Assembly (NCBI GenBank): GCA_007126865.1
Contig: SLAN01000086.1
Coordinates: forward strand, 1 to 5,852
Length of the DNA stretch: 5,852 nt
Direction of reading: 5' to 3'
DNA from: Spirochaetales bacterium
Lineage (GTDB): Bacteria; Spirochaetota; Spirochaetia; DSM-27196; SKKC01
Shown here piece by piece: positions 1,271-5,852 of the stretch. Numbering within the stretch: the first letter of the stretch is position 1; every line of letters begins with the position of its first letter. The notes under the pieces were generated by a model, which was not told the DNA's origin, did no database searches, and worked only from the letters and a program-made list of their open reading frames with translations. The position numbers and the translations under genes were made by a program.

Positions 1271-3217
1271 ATGTCGGACATACCCAGAAGTCCAAATGTA
1301 TTTCATCCACGCAAACCGTCAGCAGTTGGTTCGCGCAATTCGCTTGCGCAAGAGGGCCGCGACCAGAAGGCCGAGTACAAGCAGCTTATCGACGAAGAAG
1401 TCGAGAACATACTTAAGGACATACAGGTAAAGCTGCCTCAGGAAGTTCTGGACAAGCTCGACGTCATGGGCGGGCTGAAAGAGAAGCTCTACAACTACTA
1501 CAACCAGAACTACCAGAACATGTTCAACCGCTACATCGTCACGTCGGAAGACGAGATGGTGAAGAAGGTTCGAAACTTCATCGATAAGGAAGAGAGCAAA
1601 AATCTCGCCCGCTACTCTCCGAAAGAAATCGCGGAGATGCTCGATCAGATCGCCGGCGCCGATAAATTCAACACCGGTGAGATCGAAAAGTCGATCGTCA
1701 ACATGTACGGGCATCTGCAGGGCCACATCCAGCGAGGCATGAACGACCTCGAGAACGATACCAACTCGCTACTCCGTCAGAAGACGGACGTCGGTGCGTT
1801 CATTCGCGCTGAGAATGCGTACGCGGTTTTCAAGTGCGCGTTCAAAGACTCGGTTCAGAAGCCGAAGACGGTCACGAACACCAAGCTCAGCGTCAATATC
1901 CTCGACAGTGAGCTGATCAGCCCGATCTTCCAGTACCAGGTAACCGTCGAGTATCTTATCAAGGACCAGATTTCCCGCGCGATCATGACGATGATCGACC
2001 AGGAGATGGAACGGTTCCAGGATGAGCTGATCGACGAAGGGAAGGATGAGCTCAGCGACACGGAGCTGATGTTCGAGAAGATGAAGCGTGTCCCCAACTA
2101 TACCGACGACGACACCGAGGACGAGAATTCCAAGCGCTACACCTTCCTCGCGAAGAATCTGATCGAGAAGATCGAAGGGCTTCGCGCGGAGATCGACCTG
2201 AAGGAATTCGATCCGCTCAATATCCGGGAGAATCTCAAGAAGATCGTGGATATGGAGAACATCCGCAACCGTGGGTTCAATACCGCGATCAACTCACTGA
2301 CTTCGATCCTCGATACGTCGAAGATGGGGTATCAGTACATTGAGAACCTCAAGAACGCGCGCGAGCTCATCGTTCGCGAATATGAGGACACCGATTCCGA
2401 GCGGCTTCCGGACGAACGCTATCAGCTGCGGCTGAAGTACTACGACTCCGACCAGCTGAACGCCGAGCGCGAAGCGTACGATCAGCAGATGGAGCAGTTC
2501 AAGAACGAGATCCAGCACCTCTGGGATGTTGTCGAGGCTGTCTATCACAACAGCAAGAGCAACTTCCGGGTCACCGACTTTGAAGATCTCGCCAAGAGCG
2601 TACGCGGCCGAATCCGCAAGCAGAAGGAAATGAGCGGCGATCCGATGTACGAGGATCTCCAGAAGACCTGGAATGAGATCATTCGGATCAAGGCCGAAGA
2701 GACCGATGTCGAGCGGCTGAATCAGACCTATCTTTACGAGAAGGATCTGATGAAGCGGATGGTTAAACGGTCGCGACAGCGAGTATCCGAAATCTACGGA
2801 TTTCAGAACCCGGCCCCGCGGGTTATCCTCGATCAGCGCATCGACTTCCTCGAGCGGGAGTTCGAAGAGTTCGACTATCTCATTAACCCGTATCACATCC
2901 AGGCCGGGCTCCTGCTCGACGTCGATATCTCCAGTATCAAGCGAAAGAAGTTCACGCTGAACGGAATGGCGAACGTCCTGAACGAGTTCCTGCACGGAGT
3001 ATCGAAAGGATTCCAGGATGCGGCTTTCGCACAGTTCAAGCGTCGGCGCTCCACGATCCGTGCCGACCTGAATCAGAGCTTCGAAAATGTTGCGGAGGGA
3101 TTTGACGCCGGCGGCGGTGCCGCGGGCGGAGCATCTTCCGCAAGCGGCGAGGAGATCAAGGGCCGGGCGGATGTGACTCCGTCACAGTCGATGAATGACG
3201 ATCTCCAAGAGCTGTAA
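1271..3217 (+). CDS. cfpA: Cytoplasmic filament protein CfpA
   Basis: In treponemes CfpA is the major subunit of ribbon-like filaments that run lengthwise under the inner membrane. Loss of cfpA in Treponema denticola leaves chains of incompletely divided cells. I recognise the family from the overall sequence, not from a catalytic motif, because it has none. The 648 residues are a little shorter than the roughly 680 I recall for T. pallidum CfpA. The protein is soluble and highly charged, with no signal peptide or membrane segment. Residues 1-30 are polar and probably flexible. From about 35 onward it is mostly predicted helix, interrupted by an acidic linker around 255-286 (DDDTEDEN at 279-286). 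Helical stretches such as 395-430 have coiled-coil-like composition. There is a single cysteine, Cys189. The tail from 612 is rich in Gly, Ala and Ser and likely disordered. The start is fixed by AAGGAG six bases upstream. The next gene begins 6 bp after the stop, suggesting an operon. Confidence 0.92.
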
Positions 3218-3224
3218 GCGCTTA
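3215..3224. other. 10-bp perfect palindrome joining the cfpA stop to the next start
   Basis: TAAGCGCTTA is its own reverse complement. It contains the whole cfpA stop codon (TAA at 3215-3217), the 6-bp gap, and the first base of the next ATG. It occupies the place where a Shine-Dalgarno sequence would normally sit. It is too short to form a stable hairpin by itself, so its role, if any, is unknown. Confidence 0.6.
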
Positions 3225-4216
3225 TGGATAATCAGCTTAATGTCTTAGCACGCAAGGCCGGGTTCAACTCGGCCTTGCGTCACTTCAAGGTTGTCACCGA
3301 ATATGTCGGTCGTGTCAGTAAGGGAGCGAATCTCGCCGACATCCTGAACGAGCACCTCGATGAGGGACGTGTAAGCCGACATCAGGTTAAGCCCATTGTG
3401 AGCGCTCTTCTCGTTGACAAGTTCGACTACGCCTATAAGTCGCATAACCTTGGCCGGATGATCGACGATGTTTCCGCGATTACCGAGACGGTGTCGAAAT
3501 GGAGCAAACTGGATATCGTATGTGTGTTTCACCATCCGCATACCGGTGTGTTCGTAATCAATCCGAAACGTGATGACCAGTGGGAAGGGGCCTTGCCCCT
3601 CGGCAAAGATGAGCTGCTCGTAATCTACGTTGGTGCTGCCCGCGGTGAAGATGTCAAGCCGAGCGTGCTTCGCGATGCAGCCGACGATTTCGCCTCCCTC
3701 GTTGACGGCGCGAAGGTCCGCGGGAAGAAATCGTATGTGAGCGAGCGACGATCGGCGATCGAATCGAAGCCGGCCGCGCCTACCGGTTCAACTGCTGCTG
3801 CACCGTCCGCCGAAGAGGCGTCGGCGACGACGCAATCTGCGCCCGCGGCTTCCGCACAGCCGACAGCGGCTGCACCGAAGCGTCGGGCGCGTATGACTTC
3901 GCGTATACCCGTATTGGTCACGAATGAGCTGTTTCACAACGGCAACGTCGAGGCGTGGAAGAAGATCATCGAGTCTTACAAGAGCAAGTATGAAGGCCTC
4001 GATGTGCTCATATGGTATGAAAACGAACGTATAAACGACATAAACGCGCTTTTCAAGTGGGGCAAGGTGAAGCACGGAACCCCGATCATGATCAGTGTCG
4101 TCGGCGATGATCCGAAGGACGTGTCAAAGCTTCGACGGTATCTGTATGAAGGTGCGAGCCCCCGCTTCGAAGCGTTCCTGCACGGCGGGGCCGACCGTAC
4201 ATTAGACCTGTTCTAG
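3224..4216 (+). CDS. Conserved-context hypothetical protein, two domains joined by an Ala/Pro-rich linker
   Basis: I do not recognise a named family. The 330-residue product has no signal peptide or membrane segment, so it is probably cytoplasmic. Residues 1 to about 178 form a first mixed helix/strand domain, with hydrophobic strands around 98-110 (LDIVCVFHHPHTGVFVI) and 129-136. Residues 182-218 are a low-complexity linker of Ala, Pro, Ser and Thr. Basic residues at 219-223 lead into a second domain (about 227-330) that looks alpha/beta: a strand at 228-232, a long helix, a strand near VLIWY, then another strand before GDDP. I see no P-loop or other nucleotide-binding signature. The start at 3224 has no proper Shine-Dalgarno sequence; the nearest is a weak AAGAG at 3207-3211, 12 bases away. 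No other ATG occurs until codon 82. It lies 6 bp after cfpA, so translational coupling is likely. I infer, weakly, a role with the CfpA filament. Confidence 0.85.
   Translation: MDNQLNVLARKAGFNSALRHFKVVTEYVGRVSKGANLADILNEHLDEGRVSRHQVKPIVSALLVDKFDYAYKSHNLGRMIDDVSAITETVSKWSKLDIVCVFHHPHTGVFVINPKRDDQWEGALPLGKDELLVIYVGAARGEDVKPSVLRDAADDFASLVDGAKVRGKKSYVSERRSAIESKPAAPTGSTAAAPSAEEASATTQSAPAASAQPTAAAPKRRARMTSRIPVLVTNELFHNGNVEAWKKIIESYKSKYEGLDVLIWYENERINDINALFKWGKVKHGTPIMISVVGDDPKDVSKLRRYLYEGASPRFEAFLHGGADRTLDLF
3250..3280 (+). promoter_or_regulatory. Strong stem-loop inside the first codons of the gene after cfpA
   Basis: ACGCAAGGCCG (3250-3260) and CGGCCTTGCGT (3270-3280) are perfect reverse complements, giving an 11-bp GC-rich stem. 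G3262-C3268 and a G3261-U3269 wobble can extend it, leaving the loop UUCAA. It spans about codons 9-19, starting 26 bases after the ATG. No T-run follows, so it is not a classical intrinsic terminator. It could slow ribosomes or polymerase, or protect the 3' end of a processed cfpA message. The pairing is seen directly; the function is inferred. Confidence 0.65.
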
Positions 4217-4415: not shown

Positions 4416-5852
4416 ATGAAGAAGTATCACGCATTTAGCGAAAACGAGTATCTCGACCAGCCCGATGCGCTCGATGAGCTCGGGAGTCGAGGCAAGCGGG
4501 TCATGCAGCTCGCTTCGTTGGGACTCCCCATCGCTCCGGGGTTCGTCCTTTCGAATGAGACTATCCGGGAGATGTCCGACGATCCGGAAGCGGAGAAGTC
4601 TTTTCTGTCCGAGCCGGTCGCGAAGATGGAACAGATAATGGGTAAGCGCTTCGACGATCCGGAGAATCCTCTTCTGATTAAGGTCGTGGAAAGCCCGATG
4701 CTGAATATGGTGAATACGTTCTCTACGATTCACAACATCGGGTTGACCGGGAACACCGTAGATGGGTTTGCCAAGTACGTCGGTGAGGATTTTGCGTATC
4801 ACGAATACGCCAACGTGATTCGCAAAATGCTTCAGCTCGAGAGCCTTACCGACGTTCCGGCTGCCCGGCGGAAACGCATGGATGCGTTCTCGAAGAAACT
4901 GAAGAACGCAAGGAAAAAGGCTTCGGTGACGAAGTGTGTCGAAGAGTTTACCGACGTGTATTCCCCTGCGTTTCTCGGCGACGCGTACGCTCAGTTTGTC
5001 TGGACGATTAAGGAGTATCTGAGCCTGTTCACAGAGCGGCCGACAAGCGAAGACTCCTCGCTGATGATTCAGTCGATGGTCTTCGGCAATTACGGCCAGG
5101 AGAGTTACTTCGGAAGCTACTTCACGCATGACATCATCACCGGCGATGACAAGATCACCGGCGAGTTCTTTCCGGAGTCTTTCGACGATCGCAAAGCCGA
5201 AGGAAAGCCGATCGCCAAGATTAAGCCGGCTGTACGCAAGGAGCTCGAACGTATCGCCGAAGAGCTCGAGAAGAACTTCAAAGAGATCCGGCAGGTTCGC
5301 TTCACCGTTGAAAGTGGGAAGCTGTGGGTGATCGATCAGTTCGGAGCAACGAACCGATCCACGCAGGCGGAGATCAAGACGTTGCTGGACCTTCGCAAGA
5401 AGGGGGTAATCGATGGCGACTACGTGATCAACGCGATTAAGCCCGGACGCCTTTCGGAGCTGCTGCACCCGCAACTCGATCTCAATTCGGTGAAAAAGCT
5501 CGCGAAAGTTGAAGGCGGTATCGCAGGTGCGGTCGGTGCTGCGATCGGGAGAGTGTATTTTTCCACCGAAGCGCTCGTTAAGGAACACCGGCGTGCGACG
5601 CACGCGGGTGAGGACGCGAACCTGATACTCGCAATGCCGTCAACGTACGCCGAGGATGTAAAGGCAATCGAGGTTGCGCGCGGTGTGCTCAGTACCGAAG
5701 GTGGATACGCCTCACATGCGCCGGTTGTTGCGAGAAGTCTCGGTAAGGTCGCGTTGGTATATCCGGATGCGAATTTCACGAAGACCTCTCTGAAGATCGG
5801 GAATCGTACCGTGAAAGAGGGCGACTACATCACACTGAATGTACCGTACTAC
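4416..5852 (+). CDS. Pyruvate, phosphate dikinase-like protein with degenerate ATP site (3' partial)
   Basis: The frame is open from 4416 to the window end (479 residues) and continues beyond it. Canonical PPDK, about 870-900 residues, makes PEP from pyruvate, ATP and phosphate through a phosphohistidine carrier. The family match is clear in order: LGLPIAPGF at 35-43; NIGL plus VDGFAKYVGEDFAY after residue 100; GEFF at 249-252; FTVESGKLW at 296-304; LLHP at 349-352; and the swivelling-domain motif GGYASHAPVVAR with the phospho-acceptor His at 434, near His455 of the Clostridium enzyme. The ATP-grasp half is eroded. The GGKG lysine is Arg25, the VRSGA arginine is Val91, the FTRNP arginine is His238, and the QTR motif is Asp-Gln-Phe (307-309). 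The usual Thr before Ser-His is Ala432. Normal dikinase activity is therefore doubtful. The C-terminal PEP/pyruvate domain lies outside the window. Alternatives are a divergent but active enzyme with another phosphoryl donor, or a regulatory pseudo-enzyme. Confidence 0.88.
   Translation, partial: MKKYHAFSENEYLDQPDALDELGSRGKRVMQLASLGLPIAPGFVLSNETIREMSDDPEAEKSFLSEPVAKMEQIMGKRFDDPENPLLIKVVESPMLNMVNTFSTIHNIGLTGNTVDGFAKYVGEDFAYHEYANVIRKMLQLESLTDVPAARRKRMDAFSKKLKNARKKASVTKCVEEFTDVYSPAFLGDAYAQFVWTIKEYLSLFTERPTSEDSSLMIQSMVFGNYGQESYFGSYFTHDIITGDDKITGEFFPESFDDRKAEGKPIAKIKPAVRKELERIAEELEKNFKEIRQVRFTVESGKLWVIDQFGATNRSTQAEIKTLLDLRKKGVIDGDYVINAIKPGRLSELLHPQLDLNSVKKLAKVEGGIAGAVGAAIGRVYFSTEALVKEHRRATHAGEDANLILAMPSTYAEDVKAIEVARGVLSTEGGYASHAPVVARSLGKVALVYPDANFTKTSLKIGNRTVKEGDYITLNVPYY

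Follow-up and report, generated by a model that had tools for sequence, protein, structure and literature searches.

Introduction

In the phosphotransferase system (PTS), phosphoenolpyruvate (PEP) phosphorylates Enzyme I, which then passes the phosphate to HPr, the order of steps given in the available part of PMC8100219. A related design is found in VadK (Rv1127c), described in the accessible portion of PMC13400623 as a histidine kinase evolved from pyruvate phosphate dikinase (PPDK; TIGR01828, EC 2.7.9.1), a signalling phosphohistidine protein whose protein partners are encoded nearby. Here, we analyse a PPDK-like protein encoded near cfpA, the gene for the cytoplasmic filament protein, together with the 330-amino-acid (330-aa) protein encoded between the two, in a 5,852-nucleotide stretch of DNA (the window) that constitutes contig C281. 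The Spirochaetota genome bin to which this contig belongs comprises 343 contigs and 1.88 Mb, at 64.7% completeness. CfpA filaments form a spirochaete cytoskeleton, and we know of no account of how they are regulated. We propose, giving the idea an even chance of being right, that the PPDK-like protein is a PEP-dependent histidine phosphotransferase handing its phosphate to His238 of the 330-aa protein, with an output on the CfpA filament.

The PPDK-like protein shares with canonical PPDK its domain order, the phosphohistidine swivel and a barrel with six checked catalytic residues, placing it in the same family by descent. It differs in the replacement of the ATP-site Lys, the ATP-site Arg and the Mg-ligand Glu in all family rows, in forming a separate clade and in scoring below the TIGR01828 cut-off. 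The likeness to Enzyme I and HPr is one of analogy, a PEP barrel and a phosphohistidine swivel standing beside a carrier with predicted HPr folds and a His before helix A. Unlike Enzyme I, the proposed donor is a PPDK, with the HPr-binding domain PF05524 not listed for three orthologues, and unlike HPr, the 330-aa carrier is a tandem-domain protein unrecognised by any HPr model. VadK lost its PEP domain and kept ATP-grasp and His, as far as PMC13400623 could be consulted, whereas the family described here lost ATP residues and kept the PEP domain and His. Rifampin phosphotransferase, in the partial accounts available, uses ATP, with a drug-binding domain standing where the PPDK-like protein has its PEP barrel. 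The family is PTS-like in its proposed mechanism and PPDK by descent, and by the tests run it is a member of neither.

Results and discussion

ATP-site residues are replaced and PEP-site residues are kept

The PPDK-like gene (4416-5852; all features of the window given here lie on the forward strand) encodes the N-terminal 479 aa of the protein, comprising ATP-grasp-derived and phosphohistidine swivel domains, and its reading frame is open because the contig stops there. Residues 21-475 align with solved PPDKs (1ggo, E 5.1e-47). The window protein scores 217.8 bits against TIGR01828 over its 479 aa (cut-off 843.45) and 21.2 bits against PPDK_N (cut-off 27), both below the cut-off, with the mobile domain PF00391 matched at 38 bits, above the cut-off of 23.1. 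Eleven full-length orthologues also fall short of the TIGR01828 cut-off, at 608-677 bits. Three orthologues match PF02896 (240-247 bits) and PF00391 (33-37 bits) above the respective cut-offs, and PF05524 is not listed for these three at E up to 1.

Contig C217 of the window's genome contains a 133-aa frame that is identical at 129/133 residues to a same-genus PPDK-like orthologue and at 63 of 117 aligned residues to the canonical PPDK of that genus, and it includes the GTND and CGEHG motifs. It is the tail of the window's PPDK-like protein, so that the gene is split by the assembly and not truncated; same-genus orthologues measure 879 aa. The possibility that this match represents a second, canonical PPDK copy was rejected on the same near-identity.

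Residues were compared in an alignment of 56 PPDK-like rows (49 fetched genomes and 7 named records), to which 16 rows from further families were added later, giving 72 family rows with two near-copy pairs among them (L023/L024 and L009/L104). The canonical set of 84 combined 12 spirochaete PPDKs with 72 from named genomes, where the best 80 of 588 loci comprised 7 family members and 73 others, one of the latter being dropped as shorter than 600 aa. Since that scan takes in the best 80 of 588 loci, absence of the family outside Spirochaetota is no more than suggested. K22, R92, D321, E323, H455 and the other canonical positions follow C. symbiosum PPDK numbering; the roles we attach to them, including that of D321 and E323 as Mg ligands, are presumed.

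Three replacements run through the entire family. Arg25 (4488-4490) takes the place of the ATP-site GGKG Lys (K22), with Arg in 72/72 family rows and Lys in 84/84 canonical PPDKs. Val91 (4686-4688) replaces the ATP-site VRSGA Arg (R92), the position being Val, Ala or Ile in all 72 family rows and Arg in all 84 canonical PPDKs. Arg295 (5298-5300) replaces the Mg-ligand Glu (E323), which is Glu in 84/84 canonical PPDKs and acidic in 0/72 family rows, of which 68 have Arg or Lys and 4 have Met or Ile. The three are lost jointly in 72/72 family rows and in 0/84 canonical PPDKs. The D321 position, Gln293 in the window, keeps an acidic residue in 14 of the 72 family rows. His434 (5715-5717), at the phosphohistidine position (H455), is His in every family row, and its context, GGYASHAPVVAR, is intact in the window protein.

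The original prediction had reported this intact phosphohistidine together with a set of lost ATP-site residues. Alignment with solved PPDKs bears out the changes to Arg25 and Val91, and the MPGMMD segment is lost as described, reading MLNMVN in the window protein. The claim that the FTRNP Arg has become His238 holds for the window PPDK-like protein but not as a family trait (45 of the 72 rows have Arg there and the other 27 His), and loss of the QTR Gln is not established, the position being Asp307 in one alignment and a family-invariant Gln308 in a larger one. The change at the acidic Mg-ligand positions had been missed, with Gln293 and Arg295 now standing at D321 and E323, the latter a Glu-to-Arg charge reversal.

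Current annotation would make the protein a working ATP/AMP dikinase, which would have to rely on other residues of the pocket. The family-wide loss of K22 and R92 and of an acid at the E323 position (72/72 rows) speaks against this. In plant PPDK, according to the part of PMC5507339 available, Arg95 and Glu324 have a direct role in ATP binding and their mutation would likely abolish activity; these residues probably correspond to R92 and E323. We accordingly see only a slight chance that the protein is a functioning dikinase.

At the PEP/pyruvate barrel, R561, R617, E745, N768, D769 and C831 are kept in all family rows reaching them (71 or 69); from the window's own genome, N768, D769 and C831 are covered, on contig C217. 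Because these residues persist in every row that reaches the barrel, PEP is probably the natural donor. The earlier suggestion that phosphate may come from another donor stands in so far as the PEP/pyruvate residues are retained, with the identity of the donor read from residue conservation. With the nucleotide half altered and the PEP half intact, the remaining half-reaction would be PEP + His → pyruvate + phospho-His. In the segments around the lost ATP-site residues, nine replacements are each at least 95% conserved (65 rows), which suggests that the former ATP-site surface may have been put to new use.

The family is a conserved paralogue that follows cfpA

In a tree of 73 rows, built quickly and left unrooted, the PPDK-like family forms one side of a single branch (Shimodaira-Hasegawa-like approximate likelihood ratio test, SH-aLRT, 100). 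Comparison of the window gene with two same-genus copies gave ratios of nonsynonymous to synonymous substitution rates (dN/dS) of 0.033 and 0.043, and the ATP-grasp part alone gave 0.043-0.044. The family is a conserved PPDK paralogue, a separate clade under purifying selection. The loss of several catalytic residues could be taken as the mark of a decaying PPDK copy on its way out, but dN/dS values of 0.03-0.04, reading frames that stay long and open throughout the sampled phylum and the identical three losses in every family row leave this next to no chance; simple decay, already doubted in the original prediction, is rejected on purifying selection and conservation.

A search of the window's own genome for a second, canonical ppdK, as had been recommended, found none, an absence that stays unproven at 64.7% completeness. 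Of the two same-genus genomes, G001 carries one PPDK that exceeds the TIGR01828 cut-off, and G002 carries two pieces with high scores. Two other, near-complete genomes (G010 and G057) keep the PPDK-like gene and have pyruvate kinase, with no PPDK above the TIGR01828 cut-off.

The same 149 Spirochaetota genomes were searched for all three genes: 60 have cfpA, 58 the 330-aa gene and 56 the PPDK-like gene. Co-occurrence is near-exact: the PPDK-like gene is present in 56/60 cfpA-positive and 0/89 cfpA-negative genomes, the latter count depending on a threshold of E 1e-200 that cut genes would escape. The link to cfpA, first proposed from proximity, therefore exceeds it. The 56 comprise 55 matches of at least 1087 bits and the window itself, where the gene is cut and fails that threshold; the remaining PPDK matches in this search reach at most 765 bits, leaving no overlap between the two kinds. 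The 330-aa gene is likewise found in 0/89 cfpA-negative genomes at the threshold used. With these results, cfpA gains two companion genes that, in the sampled genomes, occur only alongside it.

The three genes are also physically linked. Among the 56 genomes that carry the full set, 40 show the order cfpA, 330-aa gene, PPDK-like gene, a figure composed of 34 genomes assigned by script (both gaps below 600 bases) and 6 reclassed by reading the rows, these having been put in a wider class because their 330-aa match was split in two. The PPDK-like gene is found 4.9-6.2 kb downstream in 7/56 genomes and on a separate contig in one. Another 5, four of them from a single genus, have the 330-aa and PPDK-like genes side by side and cfpA on a separate contig, and in 3 of a single genus each gene is on a different contig.

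The 330-aa protein carries a predicted HPr-type histidine

The gene between cfpA and the PPDK-like gene (3224-4216), overlooked in the original prediction as a likely partner, encodes a 330-aa protein with the precomputed Pfam label PF27497.1, our proposed phosphoacceptor. It is predicted to contain two tandem HPr-fold domains, the second less certain. The first (residues 69-163; 3428-3712) has no conserved His at the place of His15, as assigned by eye. The second, HPr-like domain (residues 222-316; 3887-4171) contains His238 (3935-3937), the predicted phosphoacceptor before helix A, which is His in 140/140 aligned rows and in 16/16 further-read homologues that may overlap the 140. This His directly precedes a predicted helix (239-255), the place of the HPr phosphohistidine, in nearly invariant surroundings and with no Arg at +2. 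In a Pfam scan, PF00381 (PTS-HPr) gave no match in 20 members of the 330-aa family at E up to 10. Ordinary HPr genes are also present in 10 of the 12 genomes searched.

The PPDK-like protein in a genome matching Treponema pallidum

In one genome (G115, 1,139,633 bases), the PPDK-like protein (locus L070) is 901 aa long with Glu501, and its Ala869 codon starts at 810,772 and that of Pro655 at 811,414. The TP0746 (ppdK) variants A869T at nucleotide 810,772 and P655S at nucleotide 811,414 appear in the available part of PMC10013896, and Glu501 and the 901-aa length are listed in that of PMC3373638; the genome matches Treponema pallidum and the protein matches TP0746. The K22, R92 and E323 positions are Arg, Val and Arg. 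No PPDK_N, pyruvate kinase or canonical PPDK match was found in this genome, and no PPDK-type gene besides the PPDK-like one turned up. TIGR01828 also matches part of a 711-aa frame (C-terminal region, 112.6 bits), which encodes another PEP-utilizing protein. A GTP-dependent PEP carboxykinase is present. According to the accessible text of PMC10013896, the TP0746 enzyme "most likely" makes ATP from PEP, AMP and diphosphate, a glycolytic role being assumed. Because Arg, Val and Arg replace K22, R92 and E323, it appears doubtful that TP0746 is rightly annotated as a glycolytic PPDK that makes ATP.

The missing pyruvate kinase match in this genome would fit a rebuilt small-molecule pocket, in which new basic residues bind phosphate or diphosphate (PPi) and catalyse, for example, the nucleotide-free reaction PEP + phosphate → pyruvate + PPi. 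The conserved basic replacements Arg25, Lys89 and Arg292, plus Arg or Lys at 295 in 68/72 rows, are consistent with such a pocket. Yet the PPDK-like gene follows cfpA and not the enzymes of PEP metabolism, occurring with and without a canonical PPDK match, and a metabolic enzyme leaves the co-occurring partner protein unexplained; we judge this improbable.

A candidate PEP-driven relay to the CfpA filament

A PEP half-reaction like that of Enzyme I, combined with a cfpA-restricted neighbour bearing a predicted HPr-type His, leads us to interpret the two proteins as a relay driven by PEP and directed to CfpA. As happens in PTS Enzyme I and in PPDK during its PEP half-reaction, His434 would be phosphorylated by PEP at the barrel, and the swivel domain would then rotate toward the former ATP-grasp face, which may dock the HPr-like protein in place of nucleotide. 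The phosphate would pass from His434 to His238 of the 330-aa protein, and the phosphorylated carrier would in turn influence the CfpA filament or signal to it, such that filament behaviour tracks PEP supply.

Two observations weigh against this relay. Homology of the 330-aa protein to HPr was found by none of the profile searches of solved structures, hhalign, the shuffle test or unguided alignments, leaving the predicted structure as its only support. Moreover, a genome such as that of T. pallidum, with no other PPDK or pyruvate kinase found, would profit from a working PPDK. The first of these, with a fold match that is weak for the His-bearing domain, favours a pseudoenzyme sensing PEP/pyruvate, which binds PEP, may phosphorylate its own His and transfers nothing onward, the position of the swivel by itself serving as the signal that reaches the 330-aa protein and, with it, the filament. 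Loss of the ATP residues, retention of the barrel residues and the His, and the gene partnership with cfpA and the 330-aa gene agree with sensing as well. An invariant His at a predicted HPr-type site in near-invariant surroundings is, however, hard to explain without movement of phosphate, and we regard a pure sensor as unlikely.

The PEP-driven relay, if true, would couple the cytoskeleton to energy state through a PEP-to-protein phosphate route and would represent independent evolution of a PTS-like system, the mirror image of VadK. A broader version, which we hold only tentatively and with somewhat less than even confidence, is that spirochaetes re-invented the Enzyme I/HPr relay from PPDK as a PEP-driven system dedicated to CfpA and passed down together with cfpA throughout the phylum. 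In that case the syphilis bacterium's "PPDK" would be a relay enzyme making no ATP, with PEP leaving glycolysis by another route, for example GTP-dependent PEP carboxykinase. No earlier notice of such a relay was found in the open-access literature searched, and the available portions of PMC1665464, PMC2405797 and PMC5371819 contain nothing on the PPDK-like family.

Other genes of the locus

The proposed relay target, cfpA (1271-3217), matches NF040882 at 1108.5 bits (cut-off 500). Upstream lies the end part of a large, incomplete open reading frame (3-1148) encoding a membrane-type protein with three acidic repeat copies (PDPDDPDAVDAVPEEPV). Homologues of this protein are encoded directly upstream of cfpA at L066, L067, L068, L069, L074 and L099-L102, and this protein type is a possible fourth member of the cfpA unit. 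At L083 (family f55), four open frames of 237, 427, 679 and 353 aa (10044-15407) separate the 330-aa and PPDK-like genes. One of the frames in this interval (12012-14051) resembles, by eye, the start of the L066 protein, and the four intervening frames could be further parts of the relay.
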